This document shows positions 8,123-32,252 of a DNA stretch of 43,661 nucleotides, piece after piece. The position numbers were made by a program, and so were the translations under genes. The notes beneath the pieces were generated by a model. It was not told the origin of the DNA. It ran no database searches and saw only the letters and a program-made list of their open reading frames with translations. Position 1 is the stretch's first letter, and each line of letters starts with the position of its first letter. Origin of the DNA: Bacteroidota bacterium (GTDB lineage: Bacteria; Bacteroidota; Bacteroidia; Flavobacteriales_F; PHOS-HE28); the NCBI GenBank assembly GCA_018267055.1, contig JAFDZF010000168.1:1-43661 (forward strand), written 5' to 3'.

Positions 8123-8662
8123 ATGGAACGATACGGCATCCGGACAGCCCCGAACACCGTCCGCTTCGAGCGCCTGCTGCCAGGCCCCATCGAACGCGTA
8201 TGGTCCTACCTCACCGACCCCGAGAAGCGCGCGAAATGGCTGGCGAGCGGCCCCATGGAGCTGCGCGTGGGCGGGGCCATGCGGCTCACCTGGCTGCACC
8301 GCGACCTGGACGCGGTGCAGGAACCGGTCCCTGAGCAGTTCAAGCAGTACGAGAACGGCCACAGCATGGATGGCCGCGTCACGCGTTGCGAGCCGCCGCG
8401 CCTCCTGGGCTTCACCTGGGGCAAGCAGGCGGACCGCCTTTCCGAAGTGGTGATCGAGCTGAGCGAACGCGGCAAGGACGTGCTGCTGGTGCTCACGCAC
8501 GAACGCCTGCCGGGCCACAAGGACATGCTGGGCGTGGCGGGCGGCTGGCACACGCACCTGGACATCCTGGAGGAACACCTCAACGGGCGCACCGCTCCCG
8601 GGTTCTGGAGCTCCCACGTCCGGGCCCAGGAGGAGTACCAGCAGCGGCTTCGGGAAGCCTGA
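8123..8662 (+). CDS. SRPBCC (AHSA1-like) family protein
   Basis: A 179-residue AHSA1-like protein, last gene of the ArsR operon, 12 bases after the previous stop. The N-terminus NTVRFERLLPGPIERVWSYL and the motif LTDPEKRAKWLASGPMELRV are the classical AHSA1 opening. The strands RLLGFTWGKQAD and DVLLVLTHERLP and the helix GWHTHLDILEEHLNGR complete the domain. The W in RAKWLA is the conserved family tryptophan. Ligand unknown. Three SRPBCC paralogues and one ArsR in one operon suggest a small-molecule response in which the proteins may bind related hydrophobic ligands; that is inference. Confidence 0.87.
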   Translation: MERYGIRTAPNTVRFERLLPGPIERVWSYLTDPEKRAKWLASGPMELRVGGAMRLTWLHRDLDAVQEPVPEQFKQYENGHSMDGRVTRCEPPRLLGFTWGKQADRLSEVVIELSERGKDVLLVLTHERLPGHKDMLGVAGGWHTHLDILEEHLNGRTAPGFWSSHVRAQEEYQQRLREA

Positions 8663-17699: not shown

Positions 17700-18521
17700 T
17701 TATGGGAACTTGGGGAACTTCTGGAAGTCCGGCGTGCGTTTTTCCAGGAAGGCGTTCCGTCCTTCCTGCGCCTCGTCCATCAGGTAGTACATCAGCGTGG
17801 CGTCGCCGGCGAACTCCATCAGGCCGCGCTGGCCGTCGAGCTCGGCGTTGAGGCCGCGCTTGATCATGCGGAGGGCGAGGGGGCTGCGCTGCATCATGAT
17901 GCGGCACCATTCCACGGTGGTGTCCTCCAGCTCGGCCAGCGGCACCACCTTGTTCACCATGCCCATGTCCAATGCCTCCTGGGCCGAGTATTGGAGGCAG
18001 AGGAACCAGATCTCGCGGGCCTTCTTCTGGCCCACGTGCCGCGCCAGGTAGTTGCTGCCGAAGCCCGCGTCGAAGCTGCCCACCTTGGGGCCGGTCTGCC
18101 CGAAGCGCGCATGGTCCGCGGCGATGGTGAGGTCGCACACCACGTGCAGCACGTGGCCGCCGCCGATGGCGTAGCCGTTCACCATGGCCACCACGGGCTT
18201 GGGCAGCTCGCGGATGCGCTTGTGGAGGTCCAGCACGTTCAGGCGCGGCACGCCGTCGCTGCCGATGTAGCCGCCGCGGCCCTTCACGTTCTGGTCGCCG
18301 CCGCTGCAGAAGGCCTTGTCGCCTGCACCGGTGAGCACCACTACGCCGATCGAGGGATCCTCGCGCGCGATGTCCATCGCGTCGATCATCTCCTTGTTCG
18401 TCTCGGGGCGGAACGCGTTGTAGACCTCCGGCCGGTCGATTGTGATCTTGGCGATGCCTTCGAAGGACTCGAACCGGATGTCGGTGTAGGGCTTGATGGT
18501 CTTCCAGGCGCGGGTGCTCAT
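17700..18521 (-). CDS. menB: 1,4-dihydroxy-2-naphthoyl-CoA synthase (MenB)
   Basis: A 273-residue crotonase-fold enzyme that closes the second ring of the naphthoquinone by converting o-succinylbenzoyl-CoA to DHNA-CoA. The family features are present: [20 protein letters not shown] near residue 64, the oxyanion-hole glycine run [20 protein letters not shown] near residue 115, [20 protein letters not shown] near residue 141, and the C-terminal [17 protein letters not shown] typical of MenB. Length matches MenB (270-285). It is the last gene of the menI-like/menF/menD/menB operon, 9 bases after menD. Confidence 0.95.
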
Positions 18522-18530
18522 GGTCGTATG

Positions 18531-20258
18531 TCACGCCGGGCTGGACCCGGCGTCGCGAAGATGGATGAAGTAGTCGCGCAGCACGCGCGGGGAAAGCTGG
18601 GCGTCGGTGGTGATGTGCAGGACCGCGGGCCGGTCGTGCGGGGCGTACAGCGCGGTGAGCCCGGCGTCGAGCGAGGCCGCGTCGTCCGCGGCGTAGTAGG
18701 CCAGGCCGTAGCTCTTCACCAGTGCGGCGATGTCGCGCGTGTGCGGGCTCTCGAACCACGGCAGCAGCCCGGCGTCCTTGTCGGGCCCTTCGATGAAGCG
18801 GAAGATGTTGCCGCCGCCGTTGTCGATCACGATCACGCGCAGGTGCGGGGAGAGGTGGCCGTTCCAGAAGGCATTGCTGTCGTAGCAGAAGGCCACGTCG
18901 CCGGTGAGGAGGGTGGTGGTGCGCTGCGTGGCGAAGGCGGCGCCCACGGCGGTGCTGGTGCAGCCGTCGATACCGCTGGTGCCGCGGTTGCTGAAGAAGA
19001 GCTGGCGGCGCGTGCGGTCGAAGAGCTGGGCATAGCGCGCGGGCGTGCTGTTGGCCAGGTGCACCTCGCTCTCCTCGGGGATGCGCGCGAGCACCGTGCG
19101 GAAGACGGTGAGGTCGCAGAAGGGCGCGTGGTCCACGAAATGGTGATGTGCGCTGCGGGCCTGCTCATCGAGCAGCTTCCAGCCGTCGCGGTAGGTGCTC
19201 TCGTTGGGCCGTACCCCGGCGCTCACCTGCGCGAAGAACACCTCAGGGCCCACGGCGATGTCGTGCGTGAGGCTCTGGTAGGTGTCGAAGTGCCGCTGGC
19301 CGACGTCGATGTTCCAGTGCTGCGCGGGCTTCCACTGCCGCAGCAGCGTCTTCACGCGTTTGCTCACCACCGCACCGCCGAAGGTGATCAGCAGGTCGGG
19401 CCGCAGCGCCTCGGTGTTCCTTTCGCCCACCGCCTCGATCACGCGGTCGATGCAGGTGATGAAGGCGGGCTCGTCGAGGTTGCTCGTGGCCTCGGTGTGC
19501 ACGGTGACCTGCGGCAGGGCCGCGAGCTGCAGCAATTGCTGGCGCAGCCCCGCGCTCCAGACGCCCTGCCCGGCGAGCACCATCACCTTCCTGCAGGCCG
19601 AGAGCTGCGCGATGAGCCAGCGTGCATGGTCCGGCAGGATGAACGGTTCGGTCATCACCTGCGCGATGACGCGCGAAGGGGCGGGATGCGCGTCGGCGGT
19701 GCCGTACAGCGGCTCGGAGAAGGGGACGTTCACGTGCACGGGCCCGGGCACGGGCAGCAGCGTGGCGTCGATGGCCTCGTTGATCAGGCGGCCGCCATGC
19801 CAGCGCGCGAGGTCGTCGCCCAGCAGGCGCGGCAGCTGCACGCTGCGCTTCATGTGCAGGGCGAGCACGCCCTGCTGGCGGATGGCCTGTCCTTCGCCCT
19901 GGTCCACCCATTCCTCGGGGCGGTCGGCGGTGATCACCAGCAGGGGGATGCGTTGGTAGAAGGCCTCCGCGATCGCCGGGCCGTAGTTGAGCACCGCACT
20001 GCCGCTGGTGCAGACGAGGGCCACCGGTCCGTGCAGTTGCTGCGCCAGGCCCAGCGCGAAGAAGGCCGCGCTCCGTTCGTCGATCACCTGCAGGCACCGC
20101 ACGCCGGGCTGCCGGTTGAAGGCGATCACGAGGGGGGCGCTGCGCGATCCCGGGCTGATCACCACGTTCCGCACGCCCTTCGCGGCACTGAGGCGGGCGA
20201 GCTCGGCGGCGGCGAAATGATCGGTGGTGGGCATCTGCGCTGGACGGAACGGCGGCAT
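18531..20258 (-). CDS. menD: SEPHCHC synthase (MenD)
   Basis: A 575-residue thiamine-diphosphate enzyme that joins 2-oxoglutarate to isochorismate. The N-terminal Pyr domain has VRNVVISPGSRSAPLVIAFN and the ThDP-activating glutamate region in RCLQVIDERSAAFFALGLAQ, with PVALVCTSGSAVLNYGPAIA. The C-terminal PP domain carries GTSGIDGCTSTAVGAAF and the cofactor/Mg motif TTLLTGDVAFCYDSNAFWNG with the downstream IVIDNGGGNIFRFIEG. Start at 20258 (MPPFRPAQMPTTDHF) or eight codons later at 20234; the latter is closer to the usual MenD start. A TATCTTCG element at 20271-20278 may give an internal promoter. Confidence 0.95.
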   Translation of the reverse strand: MPPFRPAQMPTTDHFAAAELARLSAAKGVRNVVISPGSRSAPLVIAFNRQPGVRCLQVIDERSAAFFALGLAQQLHGPVALVCTSGSAVLNYGPAIAEAFYQRIPLLVITADRPEEWVDQGEGQAIRQQGVLALHMKRSVQLPRLLGDDLARWHGGRLINEAIDATLLPVPGPVHVNVPFSEPLYGTADAHPAPSRVIAQVMTEPFILPDHARWLIAQLSACRKVMVLAGQGVWSAGLRQQLLQLAALPQVTVHTEATSNLDEPAFITCIDRVIEAVGERNTEALRPDLLITFGGAVVSKRVKTLLRQWKPAQHWNIDVGQRHFDTYQSLTHDIAVGPEVFFAQVSAGVRPNESTYRDGWKLLDEQARSAHHHFVDHAPFCDLTVFRTVLARIPEESEVHLANSTPARYAQLFDRTRRQLFFSNRGTSGIDGCTSTAVGAAFATQRTTTLLTGDVAFCYDSNAFWNGHLSPHLRVIVIDNGGGNIFRFIEGPDKDAGLLPWFESPHTRDIAALVKSYGLAYYAADDAASLDAGLTALYAPHDRPAVLHITTDAQLSPRVLRDYFIHLRDAGSSPA

Positions 20259-22795: not shown

Positions 22796-25700
22796 ATGAG
22801 CCCATCGTTCCGCCTGCCATCGTTCATCCTGCCCACCGCCTGCTGCCTGCTCCTGGCCGGCCCGGCGGACGCCCAGCTGCCCCCGTTCCAGCATGAGCAA
22901 GTGCTCACGGGCGTGTTCAGTCCCACTTCGATCTGCTTCCTGCCCGATGGGCGGGCGCTGGTGACCTCGCTCGGCGGGATGGTCTCCATCACCTCCCCGA
23001 TCGCGCAGCAGCCCGTGACCACGTCGATCTACCTCGCCCTGAACGACGTGAACACCAGCGCCGAGCACGGCCTGCTGGAGGTGGTGCTGGACCCCGACTT
23101 CGCCCAGAACCACTGGATCTACCTCTACTACAGCGCCCTGGACATGCACAACAAGCTGGTGCGGTTCACGGACATGGGCGACCACGCCGACCCGGCCTCG
23201 GCCACGGTGATCTTCCAGACCCAGGACCCCTTCAGCGGCTGCTGCCATACGGGAGGGGCCATCTGCTTCGACAACACGGGGAAGATCCTGCTGACGGTGG
23301 GCGACGATTTCAATCCGCTGCTCGCCCAGGACCTGCACAGCCCGTACGGGAAGGTGCACCGCTTGAACCGCGACGGCAGCGTCCCGACGGACAACCCCTA
23401 CTACGACGCCACGCCCGGCGCGTACAACGCCACCGGCAAGCTCAAGTCGGTCTACTCCTACGGCCTGCGGAACCCCTTCCGCGCCTTCTACGATGCGCCG
23501 ACGGACCGCTTCCTGATCGGTGAGGTGGGCGGCAACGACCACACGGTGGCCTGGGAGGACCTGCACCTGAACGCGCCCGGCGCGAACTTCGGCTGGCCCT
23601 TCTGCGGCGATGGCGGCCGCGACCCGTCGGGCAACTGCACCGACCCGCAGTACTCCGACCCGATCTTCACCTATCCGCACAACGGCAGCGGCGCCTCGCT
23701 CACCGGCGGCTTCGTCTACCACGGCACCATGTTCCCGCCGGAGTGGCAGGGCCGCTACTTCTACGGGGATTACGCGCGCAACTGGATCCGGTACCTGGAC
23801 TTCGATGCGCAGGGCCACGTGGTGGGCGACCATCCCTTCGTGGACAGCTCCGTTTACGGCGACCTGGCCGCGGCGGCCGTGGTGAAGCTGATCGAGGGGC
23901 CCGACGGCTCCCTCTACTACATCAGCATCTTCGATGACTATGTGAACTACACGGGTACGATCCACCGCATCTTCCTCTCGCCCGACCAGGCGCCGGTGTG
24001 CGGCACGGCCACGGCCTCGCCCGACCACGGTGCCGGCCCCTCGCTGTCGGTGGACTTCTCCGCCACGGCCACCGATCCCGAAGGCGAGGCCCTGACCTAC
24101 ACCTGGGTGTTCGACGACGGCCAGCCCAACGCCATCGGGCAGAACGTGACGCACCTCTATACCGCCGTCGGGATCTACCACCCGCAGCTGCTGGTATCGG
24201 ACGGCGCGCACACCATCAACTGCTCCACGCTCACGGTGCGGGTGGGCCTGCCGCCCGTGGTGCAGATCACCGCCCCGGCGAACGGTTCGCTCTTCCATGC
24301 CGGTGACGTGGTGACCTTCACGGGAGTAGCCACGGACGATGGCCCCCTGACGCAGGCCAGCTACTCCTGGGCCGTGGTGTTCAACCACGACCAGCACATC
24401 CACCCGGCGGCCGGCGCCACGGGCACGTCGAGCTTCGACCTCATCATCCCCAACACCGGCCACGGCTTCACGGGGAACACGCACTACACCATCACCCTCA
24501 CGGTGACGGACGAGGACGGCCTGTCCACGTCCACCTCGGTGCAGATCTTCCCCGAGAAGGTGAACGTGACGGTGGACAGCGATCCCCAGGGCCTGGAGGT
24601 GCTGGTGGAAGGCTCGCCGCACCTGACGCCCTTCACCTCGGACCAGGCGATCGGGCAGCTGCTCACCGTGGCCCCGGCCAGCCAGCAGCAATGCCAGAGC
24701 GGCGGCGGCTACACCTTCGACCATTGGAGCGACAGCCAGCCGATGATCCACCAATACCTGGTGCCCGCGGCCGGCGGCACCCTCACCGCCCACTTCGCCA
24801 GCGCCGGCGCCTGCGCCTATTGCGGGACGGCCCTGGCCTTCGACGGCGTGGACGATGAGGTGACGCTGTCGCCCTTCACCCTCAATGGGGACTTCACCAT
24901 CGAGTTCTGGCTGCGGCCCGACCCGGTGCTCACCGAGGCGGACGTGATCCTCGGCAACGACCAGGACCTTTCGCTGGACCTCAAGAACGGCCGCATGCAC
25001 CTGCTGGCCGGCATCGACCGCCTGACCTCGTCCGCGGCGGTGCCCCCGAACCAGTGGACCCACTACGCCGTGGTCCGCGCGGCGGGGCAGCCGCGCCTGT
25101 ACGTGAACGGGGTGCTCGACGCCGCGGCCACGCTGAGCACCTTCAACACGGCGCTCACGCTGAAGACGATGGGCACCGGCATGCAGACCGGCCACCTGGA
25201 CGGCGCCTTGGACGAGCTGCGGATCTGGAGCGTGGCCCGCAGCATGGGGGCGATCCAAGCCACCATGAACACGCAGGTGTCCCCCACGAGCCCGGACCTG
25301 GTGGCCTACTGGCGCTTCGACCAGCCCCAGGTGCAGGTGGTGGAGGACATCAGCCCCGGCGGGCACAACGGGGTGCTGGGCGCCACCGCCGACGTGGGCG
25401 ATGACGATCCGGTGTTCTTCACCACGAACGGCCCGATGGCCCAGGCCTGCCCGCATCCGGTGGCGCTGCACCTGCGTGCGATGCTGCAAGGGCCGTACGA
25501 CCCCGGCACCGGCCGCATGCGCGATGACCTGCGCGCGCTGGGCCTGCTCCCGCTGAACGAGCCGTACACCGCCCTGGGCCTGCCCGTGGTGGGCACGGAC
25601 CCCGGCGGCACCATCGCGCCCGCCGTCCTCCAGGTCACCGGGCCGAACGCCATCGTGGATTGGGTGCACATCGAGCTGCGCGACGCGGCCTCTCCGGCCA

Positions 25701-26197
25701 CCGTGGTGGCCAGCTGCAACGCCTTGGTGCAGCGGGACGGCGACATCGTTTCGACCGACGGGGTCAGCGCTCCATCGATCCTGGTGGACCATCCGTCGTG
25801 CTACCTGGTGCTTCGCCACCGCAACCACTTCGGGGTGATGACCGCCCAGCCCCTGGACGTGTCGGGCAGCGCGATCACCGTGGACCTGAGCTCGCCCGCC
25901 CAGGCCTGCTACGGCACCAATGCCCGCATCGAGGAGGGGGGGGTGTTGGCGCTGGTCGCCGGCAACACTAACTTGGACTCGTTGTTGAAGTACGTCGGCT
26001 TCGCGAACGACCGGGACCCGATCCTCGTAGCAGTGGGCGGGTCGGTGCCTACACGGACCGTGACGGCCTATGCGCTCACCGATGTGAACCTCGACGGCGT
26101 GATCAAGTATACAGGCGTGCGCAACGACCGCGACATCATCCTCCAGAACATCGGCGGCCAGCTGCCGAACATCGTACGCACCGAGCAACTTCCCTAG
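22796..26197 (+). CDS. secreted PQQ-type dehydrogenase propeller with PKD, LamG and dockerin-like tail
   Basis: A 1133-residue extracellular protein with a signal peptide (MSPSFRLPSFILPTACCLLL, then AGPADAQ). Residues about 30-390 are a glucose/sorbosone-dehydrogenase beta-propeller (GSDH), as shown by CCHTGGAICFDNTGKILLTV, YSYGLRNPFRAFYD and GANFGWPFCGDGG. A PKD domain follows (about 393-485, WVFDDGQ), then Ig-like and repeat strands to 671, a LamG/concanavalin domain (about 675-850), and a C-terminal module (882-1133) ending in two related repeats. Repeat 1 is NLDSLLKYVGFANDRDPIL near residue 1059; repeat 2 is DVNLDGVIKYTGVRNDRDII near residue 1096. The DxNxDG loop resembles a dockerin calcium loop. 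No T9SS type-A or type-B tail is present. The start gives the signal peptide. A small T9SS-tailed protein follows after 14 bases. Confidence 0.85.
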   Translation: MSPSFRLPSFILPTACCLLLAGPADAQLPPFQHEQVLTGVFSPTSICFLPDGRALVTSLGGMVSITSPIAQQPVTTSIYLALNDVNTSAEHGLLEVVLDPDFAQNHWIYLYYSALDMHNKLVRFTDMGDHADPASATVIFQTQDPFSGCCHTGGAICFDNTGKILLTVGDDFNPLLAQDLHSPYGKVHRLNRDGSVPTDNPYYDATPGAYNATGKLKSVYSYGLRNPFRAFYDAPTDRFLIGEVGGNDHTVAWEDLHLNAPGANFGWPFCGDGGRDPSGNCTDPQYSDPIFTYPHNGSGASLTGGFVYHGTMFPPEWQGRYFYGDYARNWIRYLDFDAQGHVVGDHPFVDSSVYGDLAAAAVVKLIEGPDGSLYYISIFDDYVNYTGTIHRIFLSPDQAPVCGTATASPDHGAGPSLSVDFSATATDPEGEALTYTWVFDDGQPNAIGQNVTHLYTAVGIYHPQLLVSDGAHTINCSTLTVRVGLPPVVQITAPANGSLFHAGDVVTFTGVATDDGPLTQASYSWAVVFNHDQHIHPAAGATGTSSFDLIIPNTGHGFTGNTHYTITLTVTDEDGLSTSTSVQIFPEKVNVTVDSDPQGLEVLVEGSPHLTPFTSDQAIGQLLTVAPASQQQCQSGGGYTFDHWSDSQPMIHQYLVPAAGGTLTAHFASAGACAYCGTALAFDGVDDEVTLSPFTLNGDFTIEFWLRPDPVLTEADVILGNDQDLSLDLKNGRMHLLAGIDRLTSSAAVPPNQWTHYAVVRAAGQPRLYVNGVLDAAATLSTFNTALTLKTMGTGMQTGHLDGALDELRIWSVARSMGAIQATMNTQVSPTSPDLVAYWRFDQPQVQVVEDISPGGHNGVLGATADVGDDDPVFFTTNGPMAQACPHPVALHLRAMLQGPYDPGTGRMRDDLRALGLLPLNEPYTALGLPVVGTDPGGTIAPAVLQVTGPNAIVDWVHIELRDAASPATVVASCNALVQRDGDIVSTDGVSAPSILVDHPSCYLVLRHRNHFGVMTAQPLDVSGSAITVDLSSPAQACYGTNARIEEGGVLALVAGNTNLDSLLKYVGFANDRDPILVAVGGSVPTRTVTAYALTDVNLDGVIKYTGVRNDRDIILQNIGGQLPNIVRTEQLP

Positions 26198-26211
26198 CCT
26201 ATCCAGCAGCC

Positions 26212-26988
26212 ATGCAACATTTCCGTACCCCCCTGTTCGCCGCCCTGGCCCTATTGACCGCCGTGCCGGCGTTCGCGCAAGGCCGGATGGACATCGGCCT
26301 CTTCTCCCCGAGCGAAGGCCGGCTCGAGGTGAAGGTGCGCCCCTCCGCCGACTTCGATGGCGTCTTCTCCTCGCTGGTGTTCACCCTGCGCTGGGACAAG
26401 AACACCGACATCGCCTTGCTGGCACCGAAGCAGTCGGACGTGATCGCCCAGCACATCCGCACCTCGCGGTCCGGTGACGTGCGCGAGAACGGCCCCTTCG
26501 AGTACCAGGTCTTCGCGGGCTTCGGCTTCGATGCCCTGCAGAACACCGGCATCCATTGGGAGGCCGGCCAGGAGTACACGATCATGACCATCCCTGTGAC
26601 GGGCAAGGGCTCCGTGGAGCTGGTGAACGATGAATGGACCGGCGAGACCGAGGTGAACGCCGACTTCTACATCTCCCTGGGCGGCGCCGACCACACGGGC
26701 TCCATCTACAAGAGCCTGGCCACCACCACCGACCTGGACGGCACGGTGACGATCCAGCCCAACCCCAACGAGGGCCGGTTCACGTTCTCCTTCGCCGCCG
26801 CCGAGCCGAGCGACATCCGCATCGAGGTGCTGAACACCCTGGGCCAGTCGGTCTACACCGACCAGCTCCGCGGGTTCCAGGGCAGCTACCGCAAGGACAT
26901 GGACCTGACCACCATGAGCGACGGCATCTACTACCTGAAGATCACCCGCGCGGAACAGACCAGCGTGCACAAGATCGTGTACCGCTGA
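26212..26988 (+). CDS. small secreted protein with T9SS type-A tail, possibly cohesin-like
   Basis: A 258-residue protein with signal peptide MQHFRTPLFAALALLTAVPA (then FAQ). Residues 28-165 are a beta-rich domain whose opening, GRLEVKVRPSADFDGVFSSL followed by VFTLRWDKN, and later strand EAGQEYTIMTIPVTGKG resemble the cohesin-type jelly-roll pattern; this is judged by eye. Residues 179-258 are a clear T9SS type-A sorting domain: VTIQPNPNEGRFTFSF, IRIEVLNTLGQSVYTDQL, DLTTMSDGIYYLKITRAEQT and the end VHKIVYR. The tail would lead to secretion and attachment at the cell surface. It lies 14 bases after a large protein without such a tail and with dockerin-like repeats, so the two are probably partners. 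It ends at a bidirectional terminator. Confidence 0.8.
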   Translation: MQHFRTPLFAALALLTAVPAFAQGRMDIGLFSPSEGRLEVKVRPSADFDGVFSSLVFTLRWDKNTDIALLAPKQSDVIAQHIRTSRSGDVRENGPFEYQVFAGFGFDALQNTGIHWEAGQEYTIMTIPVTGKGSVELVNDEWTGETEVNADFYISLGGADHTGSIYKSLATTTDLDGTVTIQPNPNEGRFTFSFAAAEPSDIRIEVLNTLGQSVYTDQLRGFQGSYRKDMDLTTMSDGIYYLKITRAEQTSVHKIVYR

Positions 26989-30077: not shown

Positions 30078-30134
30078 CGCGCCATGGCCCCCCGTAGGCA
30101 ACGCCCCGCCGTACCTTGTGGTCTTCTTGTTCGG

Positions 30135-32252
30135 ATGCGGAGATCGATCGCCCTTTTCGTGGCCGCGCTGGCGATATCGCCGGCCTGGGCCACCCACATC
30201 GTGGGGGGCGAGATGTACTACACCTACCTGGGCAACGACGATTACGAGCTGACGATCAAGATGTACCGGGATTGCAATGCGGCGACCCCGTTCGATGATC
30301 CCCTGTTCTTCGGCGTCTTCGGGTCCACCGGCAACCACCTCTTCGACAACGAGCTCTTCCCGACCGCCATCACCGAGGTGCCCATCACGGTGAACAACCC
30401 GTGCCTGACGCCGCCGTCCAACATCTGCACGGAGGAGGCCATCTACCAGGGGACCATCCACCTGCCCGCCGGCACGGGCGGCTACACGATCGCCTACCAG
30501 CGCTGCTGCCGGGGTTCGTTCATCGCGAACCTGAACAACCCTTCGGACCAGGGGCTGACCTTGACGGTGCGTGTGCCCGACATCAGCGTGACGGGCCCCA
30601 ACAGCAGTCCCCGCTTCATCGAGGCGCCGCCCACCGCGCTCTGCCTGGGCCAACCCTTCACCTTCGACCATTCGGCCACGGACCCCGACGGCGACCAGCT
30701 GGTCTACGACCTCTGCGCCCCCTACAACGGCGGCTCGGTGATGATGCCGAACCCCACCACGCCCGCCCCGCCGCCCTATACGCCCGTGCCTTTCGGCCCT
30801 GCCTATTCGGTGGGCAACATGGTGAACTCCGTGCCGCCGATGACCGTGGACGCCAATACCGGCGAGCTCTCCCTGACCCCGTCCGGCCTGGGCTTCTTCG
30901 TGGTGGGCGTGCGCGTGCGGGAGTACCGCAATGGCGTCCTGCTCAGCGAGGTCATCCGCGATTTCCAGTTCGATTTCGTGAACTGCGTAGTGAACGTGCA
31001 TTCCACCATCGCCGACCAGAACGATACCTCCTTCTGCAACGGCCTCACGGTGCAGATGGAGAACAACAGCATCGGTGGCGGCTTCTTCCATTGGGACTTC
31101 GGTGTGCCGGGCACCCTGGCCGATACCTCCGACCAGGAAGCCCCCCTCTTCACCTACCCCGCCCCTGGCACATACTTGGTGACCCTGGTGGCGAACCCCG
31201 GCTGGCCCTGTGCGGACACATCGCAGAAGTCCTTCGCGCTCTACCCGCCCCTGGAGGTCGGCTTCTCCACGCCGGCCATCGTCTGCCCCGACCAGATGCC
31301 GCTCACCCTCACGGCCACGGGCAATTTCTCGCCGGCGGCCAACGTGCTTTGGGACTTCGGTGATGGCTTCTCCACGGACCTGTCCAGCCACACCACCACG
31401 GTATCCTTCACAGGGTTGGGCGCCCATGCGATCCGGGTGAGCGCCAGTGAGCACGGATGCGACGGCAGCCACCAGGATTCCGTCCGGGTCTACCCCCTCC
31501 CGGAGGTCGCGTTCGCGCCCGACACCGGCGGATGCGTTCCCTTCGAGGTGCCGTTCACCCAGAATGCGACGGCCTGGACACCGCTGCGCTACCTCTGGGA
31601 TTTCGGCGACGGGCACACCAGCAACGACAGCCTGCCCCGACATACATATACCGCCACGGGGGTCTATGACGTGCGGCTCACCGTCTCCACCGACACCGGC
31701 TGCGTGGCCACCGGCACCCTGCTGAAAACGTCGATGGTGGACGCCTGGCCCATGCCCACGGCACGGTTCACCGCCGATCCGCTCATCACCAGCCTGCTGG
31801 ACCCGGAGGTGACCTTCACCGACCATTCCATCAATGCGGTGGAGTGGGACTTCGCGCTGGGAGGTGCCCATTACGACCACGCCCCCTTCACGCATGTGTT
31901 CGATGACGCGGGTCCCTTCGACGTGCTGCTGACCGTGACCAGTGACCAAGGCTGCCTGGACACGGCCACCGTGCGGATATTCGTGGGGGACCACCTCTTC
32001 TTCGCCCCCACGGCGTTCTCGCCGAACGGCGACGACATCAATGAATACTGGCGGCCGGAGGTGAAGGGTGCGCGCCTCTACCACCTCGATGTCTTCGATC
32101 GCTGGGGCCAGGTGGTCTTCAGCACCACGGACCCCAAGGAGGCCTGGGACGGCAAGAACGCCACCACGGGCATCTATGCCTTCAAGGCGTGGCTGAGCGA
32201 ATGGGGGCCGCTGGAGAAGGAGTACAACGGCACCATCACGCTGTTCCGCTGA
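30135..32252 (+). CDS. PKD-repeat protein with T9SS type-B sorting domain
   Basis: A 705-residue extracellular protein. The signal peptide is MRRSIALFVAALAISPAWA. The N-terminal domain (about residues 20-310) begins THIVGGEMYYTYLGNDDYEL, a frequent opening in flavobacterial gliding-associated surface proteins. About four PKD-like domains follow, marked by WDFGVPG, WDFGDGFST, WDFGDGHTS and WDFALGG. The C-terminus (about residues 622-705) is a type-B (gliding-motility-associated) T9SS domain: FFAPTAFSPNGDDINEYWRP, LDVFDRWGQVVFST, and YNGTITLFR. These domains direct secretion and often depend on SprF-like partners; none is in the window. The start begins the signal peptide. The 3' end overlaps the convergent GNAT gene by 17 bases. 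Confidence 0.9.
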   Translation: MRRSIALFVAALAISPAWATHIVGGEMYYTYLGNDDYELTIKMYRDCNAATPFDDPLFFGVFGSTGNHLFDNELFPTAITEVPITVNNPCLTPPSNICTEEAIYQGTIHLPAGTGGYTIAYQRCCRGSFIANLNNPSDQGLTLTVRVPDISVTGPNSSPRFIEAPPTALCLGQPFTFDHSATDPDGDQLVYDLCAPYNGGSVMMPNPTTPAPPPYTPVPFGPAYSVGNMVNSVPPMTVDANTGELSLTPSGLGFFVVGVRVREYRNGVLLSEVIRDFQFDFVNCVVNVHSTIADQNDTSFCNGLTVQMENNSIGGGFFHWDFGVPGTLADTSDQEAPLFTYPAPGTYLVTLVANPGWPCADTSQKSFALYPPLEVGFSTPAIVCPDQMPLTLTATGNFSPAANVLWDFGDGFSTDLSSHTTTVSFTGLGAHAIRVSASEHGCDGSHQDSVRVYPLPEVAFAPDTGGCVPFEVPFTQNATAWTPLRYLWDFGDGHTSNDSLPRHTYTATGVYDVRLTVSTDTGCVATGTLLKTSMVDAWPMPTARFTADPLITSLLDPEVTFTDHSINAVEWDFALGGAHYDHAPFTHVFDDAGPFDVLLTVTSDQGCLDTATVRIFVGDHLFFAPTAFSPNGDDINEYWRPEVKGARLYHLDVFDRWGQVVFSTTDPKEAWDGKNATTGIYAFKAWLSEWGPLEKEYNGTITLFR

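Follow-up and report, generated by a model that had tools for sequence, protein, structure and literature searches.

We describe here a pair of adjacent genes in a 43,661-nucleotide stretch of DNA from a Bacteroidota bacterium (Flavobacteriales_F, PHOS-HE28; GenBank assembly GCA_018267055.1, contig JAFDZF010000168.1, positions 1 to 43,661; the whole stretch is termed the window in the following), which very probably encode a cohesin anchored via the type IX secretion system (T9SS) and a secreted cargo protein tailed by an X-dockerin. The pair most likely represents a surface socket and one of many secreted plug-in proteins, as part of a system distributed across the Bacteroidota.

The cargo gene (22796..26197, plus strand) encodes a protein of 1133 aa and is followed after 14 nt, on the same strand, by the gene of the 258-aa anchor protein (26212..26988). 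The cargo starts with a predicted signal peptide of 26 aa (22796..22873, cleavage at ...GPADA / QLPPF) and comprises a glucose/sorbosone dehydrogenase-like domain (GSDH; residues 42–376, 22919..23923; PF07995, E 1.3e-51), two stretches of PKD-type domains (residues ~405–590, 24008..24565; PF18911, E 1.3e-20), a LamG-like domain (residues 683–820, 24842..25255; PF13385, E 6.2e-23) and a C-terminal module (residues 882–1133, 25439..26194) without a match to any Pfam family. In the anchor, a predicted signal peptide of 22 aa (26212..26277, ...AFA / QGR) precedes a cohesin-like domain (residues 23–174, 26278..26733), likewise without a match to any Pfam family, and a type A T9SS sorting domain (26758..26979), which is the sole Pfam match of this protein (PF18962, 41.4 bits, cut-off 27) and is also recognised by NCBIfam (TIGR04183, 37.4 bits, cut-off 23). 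The combination of signal peptide and PF18962/TIGR04183 tail that defines type A T9SS cargo is consequently present in the anchor and absent from the cargo protein. Both mature proteins are predicted to begin with Gln, which is the usual residue following the signal peptide in Bacteroidetes (PMC5837995). SprA and PorV, core proteins of the T9SS, are likewise encoded in the genome, in which the type A tail is matched 143 times. A preliminary description of this DNA had named both open reading frames and their spacing, the signal peptide, the several domains and the missing T9SS tail of the large protein, as well as the signal peptide and type A tail of the small one, all of which are borne out by these data. 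Scans for promoters and terminators found nothing.

The C-terminal module, spanning ~245 aa, is not restricted to this cargo protein. Homologous copies (46–56% identity) terminate 16 proteins of the genome, 817 modules were found across 45 genomes of the genus (4–46 per genome), and 52 of 394 genomes sampled evenly over the phylum carry it as well, in line with the recurrence stated in the preliminary description. All 91 distinct full modules collected from the genus terminate their protein; the module end coincided exactly with the protein end in 87 of 94 matches and lay at most 7 residues away from it in the others. The preceding heads are highly diverse, including Reprolysin-like and M43 peptidases, MAM with lysyl oxidase, trypsin-like, GSDH, FG-GAP/ASPIC, kelch and beta-helix domains as well as PKD with PA14, and on account of this variety the module looks like a docking tag rather than a part of one particular enzyme. 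Module and T9SS tail were never found together in one protein of this genome.

Within the window copy, an X-module-like beta domain (residues ~890–1055, 25463..25960), delimited by alignment (A1) to a modelled homologue, is followed by two dockerin-like repeats, GNTNLDSLLKYVGFANDRDPILVAVGG (25961..26050) and DVNLDGVIKYTGVRNDRDIILQNIGGQ (26081..26161), which also derive from the alignment and for both of which the homologue model places a helix after the NDRD motif. Repeat 2 features the full set of ligands (D1-N3-D5 plus N-D-R-D), and its consensus in the module alignment reads D-x-N-x-D-G-x-V-K-Y-T-G-x-x-N-D-R-D. Among 89 scored modules of the genus, Asp occupies loop position 1 in all 89, Asn position 3 in 79 and Asp position 5 in 76, and NDRD is found in 85. 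The ligand at position 3 of repeat 1 is missing in most modules, the family mostly having V or L at this place and the window copy N. Relative to the canonical 12-residue dockerin loop with its ligands at positions 1, 3, 5 and 12, the loops contain four additional residues before the last acidic ligand; repeat 2 accordingly holds 1, 3 and 5, with the last acidic residue at position 16. Judged by their sequence, the C-terminal repeats are real and under selection; of the two NDRD repeats reported earlier, the second has kept its ligands in the genus, whereas in the first, loop position 3 has degenerated.

Modules in other Bacteroidota share a similar N-terminal part and continue with canonical loops (GDxNxDGxVxxxD) of the 12-residue calcium-binding kind. 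When the profile of these canonical-loop modules was compared with the sequences of the Protein Data Bank (PDB), the 18 best matches were all dockerins (E 0.0066 to 0.29), and two relatives scored 17.5 and 12.9 bits against the Pfam dockerin family PF00404 at the expected place, below its cut-off of 22.9. The profiles of the NDRD-type module (A1) and of the cohesin-like domain (A3) gave no relevant match among PDB chain sequences. An array of canonical-loop modules was observed in an Ignavibacteria-like genome, featuring at least 10 such genes within ~40 kb (G466:C21:268378-308467) and 22 modules in total.

The cohesin-like domain, as defined by its family profile A3, is strongly associated with the module at the genomic level. 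Only two T9SS-tailed proteins of the genome contain it, namely the window anchor and a copy on contig C91 that directly adjoins four tandem module genes, and these two are also the only ones among the 143 T9SS tails located less than 3 kb from a module (~1 in 10,000 by chance). A third, divergent copy, detected by profile search, lies on the other side of the four-gene array, as the N-terminal domain of a large repetitive protein. Across the genus, we counted 146 cohesin-like domains in 44 of the 45 genomes (1–6 per genome). In 47 cases, a co-oriented module gene lies upstream of the domain at a distance of less than 300 nt, compared with 0.12 cases expected, and 81 domains have a module within 10 kb (14.4 expected), 79 of them in the same orientation. 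Clusters usually begin with an anchor, continue with one to four module genes and end with a large protein headed by a cohesin-like domain; cohesins placed N-terminally on large surface proteins form a second class of partner. Anchors carry a single cohesin-like domain, with a two-domain case in genome G011.

Two further observations concern contig C91. The protein harbouring the third copy (L027, G000:C91, 1-4489) has a length of at least 1,496 aa, contains 'ACDDGNATTxNDVVxxxCVC' repeats and extends past the contig end; it may be a second surface platform, since such proteins of relatives often end in a T9SS tail. At the same locus, a module protein contains the only above-cut-off Pfam Dockerin_1 match of the genome (23.6 bits, 8242-8385, minus strand), which is situated upstream of the C-terminal module, so that one chain combines an NDRD module with a dockerin of canonical appearance. 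A scan with a narrower sequence set (A11) exclusively matched metagenome-assembled genomes (MAGs), nearly all of them labelled Flavobacteriales or Bacteroidetes/Bacteroidota. For this reason, the label of one MAG assigned to Chryseobacterium gleum (L283, CAMCAZ010000024.1), featuring a cohesin-like anchor at ~55% identity, is probably wrong.

In the sample of the phylum, the A3-type domain was found in 4 of the 394 genomes including the present one. The other 393 genomes contain four genes with this domain, all of them T9SS-tailed; three directly follow an NDR-type module gene, and the fourth shares its contig with a module gene ~2.5 kb away. One of these four (L138) additionally combines the family domain and T9SS tail with a true Pfam Cohesin domain (PF00963, 30.2 bits, cut-off 24.1). 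In a separate order, canonical-loop modules are present in 35 of 116 genomes, and the gene immediately following the module gene is T9SS-tailed in 15 loci. The association of the two modules, proposed as a test in the preliminary description, is therefore not only far above expectation in the genus, but also maintained in other families and orders.

A correspondence also exists between loop type and partner type. Modules of the NDR type precede A3- or A8-type domains in six loci outside the genus and canonical modules precede A6-type domains in 15 loci, with zero crossings between both sets; two of the NDR/A8 loci (L249, L252) even occur inside a family otherwise of the canonical type. The exact probability of this match is 2e-5 overall and 0.02 inside the latter family. 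On the sequence level, dockerin-loop type and cohesin type thus switch together between lineages. Some partners match neither profile (e.g., L240, L142, L251 and L253), and a third partner type (A7, 'YEVYARPDF...GGSQITVVVPA') follows NDR-type modules in L140 and L141 (G379). In L141, the A7 domain is present twice in one protein of 2,214 aa with an apparent type B T9SS tail at its end. Profile comparison of A3 with the partner families A6 and A7 revealed no sequence homology, and the assignment of those partners to the cohesin family consequently draws on their position and, for the L240 type only, on their fold.

Structure predictions of homologues are consistent with both domain assignments. 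Since the two genes of some natural module-cohesin pairs share one reading frame on either side of the stop codon, these pairs can be predicted as one contiguous chain without any change of sequence; this read-through chain is a modelling device, as the cell makes two proteins. For AlphaFold2 we used a pair from the genus (L058; 448 residues with the module at 1–247, a linker of 47 disordered residues at 248–294 and the cohesin at 295–448) and an alignment (A5) including 15 natural in-frame read-through pairs, the input of 67 rows containing both window domains, with the window cohesin-like domain aligned to L058. The model reached a mean predicted local distance difference test (pLDDT) value of 87.4 and a predicted template modelling (pTM) score of 0.82, which is consistent with docking when compared with a ceiling of ~0.89 for a chain with this disordered linker and ~0.55 for unplaced domains, both estimated from length fractions. 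In the module, helices at 183–190 and 223–230 follow the two loops, giving two tandem loop-helix (F-hand) repeats after an X-module, as is typical of dockerins. Its best structural match is the X-dockerin of a type II complex (4wi0_B, Z 10.0, 146 residues, 3.9 Å), followed by the X-dockerins 4u3s_B, 3kcp_A, 4fl4_C, 5m0y_B and 2b59_B (Z 9.2–9.8), the best of these rows covering 146–150 residues. The predicted partner resembles cohesins (6kgf_C, Z 10.0, 125 residues, 3.2 Å; 1ohz_A, Z 9.4; 1anu, Z 9.2).

As a second example, we modelled a canonical pair of the other order (L240, 20-row alignment), the partner of which was picked by operon position and T9SS tail alone and has no Pfam cohesin match. 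The 50 best structural rows for this partner (residues 253–412) were without exception cohesins, with Z from 14.1 to 9.9 (Foldseek E 3e-7, TM 0.76), which independently confirms the operon rule. The partner domain of L058, a homologue of the window domain, and that of L240 are thereby both predicted to adopt the cohesin-type jelly roll that had been suspected for the small protein, and the C-terminal module is, according to the models, an X-module plus dockerin dyad. The suggested scaffold of dockerin-like tail and cohesin-like anchor is largely supported by gene pairing and folds, the tail having to be refined to an X-module with dockerin; the interface expected between both partners was predicted for L058 and did not appear for L240.

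Several points weigh against a cohesin-dockerin pair. Pfam Cohesin (PF00963) has no match in the anchor nor anywhere in the genome, and Pfam Dockerin (PF00404) none in the cargo protein. The binding of the pair is a prediction, and one of the two docking attempts was negative: the L240 domains were confidently modelled but undocked, with a pTM of 0.56, an empirical value close to the ~0.55 expected for unplaced domains and possibly owed to the shallow alignment. In the docked model, which was judged on its pTM score, the cohesin forms the head of a large surface protein instead of a small anchor, and the two genes of the window pair lie in different frames and give no read-through chain to be modelled. 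Moreover, AlphaFold2 may have learned to bring any dockerin-like fold together with any cohesin-like one. Regarding the genomic evidence, 65 of the 146 cohesin-like domains of the genus are without a module gene in the examined flank (34 of these flanks being shorter than 5 kb), mostly corresponding to one stand-alone anchor gene per genome, and co-switching could stem from inheritance of whole operons instead of recognition.

An alternative explanation would be that the secretion machinery directly reads the module as a T9SS sorting signal of an undescribed kind, the neighbouring protein being an accessory factor, for instance a chaperone or a shuttle. Its place at the extreme C-terminus (exact in 87/94 matches) and its mutual exclusion with T9SS tails on the signal peptide-bearing proteins of the genome would fit such a role, and, given that three signal types (A, B and C) are known, the existence of others is conceivable (PMC10202324). 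Signals of type A or B were considered and rejected, as the large protein has no match to PF18962, TIGR04183, PF13585 or TIGR04131. However, the predicted fold of the module matches X-dockerin dyads, the PDB matches of its canonical-loop relatives are exclusively dockerins, the partner is itself a T9SS substrate of cohesin fold, and a directly read signal would give no cause for loop and cohesin types to change together. It is thus unlikely that the module itself is a T9SS signal, and we consider its direct reading by the machinery, assisted by the neighbour, improbable.

Similarly improbable is the option that both folds are real but the cohesin of the neighbour has other dockerins as its ligands, with only shared regulation behind the operon and fold memory behind the docking model. 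The conserved stand-alone anchor that each genome keeps away from any module and the undocked L240 pair could be seen in this light, but the sole module family of the genome is paired with its sole cohesin family, and the adjacency is far above chance and reappears in other orders, where the subfamilies are unrelated in sequence. A module that is a common beta domain for binding carbohydrates or substrates, whose calcium loops are decorative and which has no relation to its neighbour, is very hard to reconcile with structural matches specific to X-dockerins over 146–150 residues and with the genomic pairing with cohesins, even though many Ig-like and carbohydrate-binding module folds are similar to beta-rich X-type domains taken alone and several cargo proteins contain LamG, PKD or PA14 domains.

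The proposed T9SS-anchored cohesin and X-dockerin-tailed cargo show parallels to the clostridial type II system (CipA X-dockerin with the SdbA/ScaB cohesin; PDB 2b59, 4u3s, 4wi0), in which the cargo also carries a C-terminal X-module and two-repeat dockerin and the surface anchoring protein a jelly-roll cohesin, and the predicted folds match. In contrast, the host here is Gram-negative, a T9SS tail takes the place of SLH domains or sortase, there is mostly one cohesin per anchor, the dockerin loop has a four-residue insertion, the cargoes are peptidases, oxidases and repeat proteins instead of cellulases, and the domains are not seen by Pfam. The nearest precedent is described for 'Ca. Stygibacter' of the Cloacimonadota, for which a T9SS-tailed multi-cohesin scaffoldin and enzymes with C-terminal dockerins were inferred from InterPro annotation (Williams et al., PMC8542988). 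That system belongs to another phylum and features a tandem-cohesin scaffoldin of 3,755 aa with InterPro-recognised domains, whereas small single-cohesin anchors, Pfam-invisible families, one-to-one operons and X-modules characterise the Bacteroidota version. Non-cellulosomal cohesin folds are likewise found in Clostridium perfringens glycosidases (PDB 2vo8 and 2jh2, Z 9.5 and 9.4), there inside the enzyme and here on a separate anchor. A cellulosome, i.e., a multi-cohesin scaffoldin with cellulases, is not what we observed, the cargo heads found being peptidases, lysyl oxidase, GSDH, kelch and FG-GAP. Among type A T9SS cargo (PF18962/TIGR04183), the anchor would be a regular member, while the cargo and the other module proteins lack the tail and would attach via their partner.

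In the literature, Bacteroidota have been reported to lack cohesins and dockerins (PMC5831590), as has a deep relative (PMC3534657), a view explained by the fact that the usual models miss these families. A few PF00404 matches were described in single-cell genomes of gut Bacteroidales (PMC10266427), and a survey of cellulosome bacteria from 2024 omits the phylum (PMC11557425). The Bacteroidota version appears to be undescribed in open-licence PMC papers; a subscription paper could exist.

Taken together, we propose that cargo and anchor both reach the periplasm by means of their signal peptides. The type A tail would lead to export of the anchor by the type IX system and its fixation on the cell surface, where the jelly-roll cohesin domain may serve as socket for the non-covalent, presumably calcium-dependent docking of the cargo and ~15 other secreted proteins via X-module and two-repeat dockerin. 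The genus would use a version with the four-residue loop insertion ending in NDRD and a matching cohesin subfamily, and other lineages one with canonical EF-type loops and a different cohesin subfamily. To cross the outer membrane, the cargo could either hitch-hike on the anchor or take a route of its own. As T9SS substrates fold in the periplasm prior to export (PMC10202324), carriage of a folded passenger is conceivable. We tentatively raise the possibility, without favouring it, that Bacteroidota have a further general path onto and across their surface, in which tail-less proteins bind a small cohesin-T9SS carrier in the periplasm via their X-dockerin and pass folded through the type IX translocon, with few carriers serving dozens of cargoes.

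Apart from the gene pair, two other regions of the window deserve mention. A 722-aa protein (30084-32252, plus strand) has an end (FAPTAFSPNGDDINEYW...) that, by eye, resembles a type B T9SS tail, and menaquinone-like open reading frames, judged from their sequence, are located at 17700-20258 on the minus strand (MenB-like 17700-18521, MenD-like 18531-20258).

The most interesting aspect of this system is its broad occurrence together with the co-switching of types. If our interpretation holds true, cellulosome-like plug-and-socket display, wired to the type IX system, would be common in Gram-negative Bacteroidota, and many secreted proteins that now seem to lack a destination, 16 of them in this genome and up to 46 in relatives, could be assigned a location. 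Type IX export of a folded passenger held only by its partner would become testable, and the pairs would provide orthogonal cohesin-dockerin combinations for engineering. Should the passenger hypothesis also be true, the set of T9SS-dependent proteins would be much larger than the set of T9SS-tailed ones.

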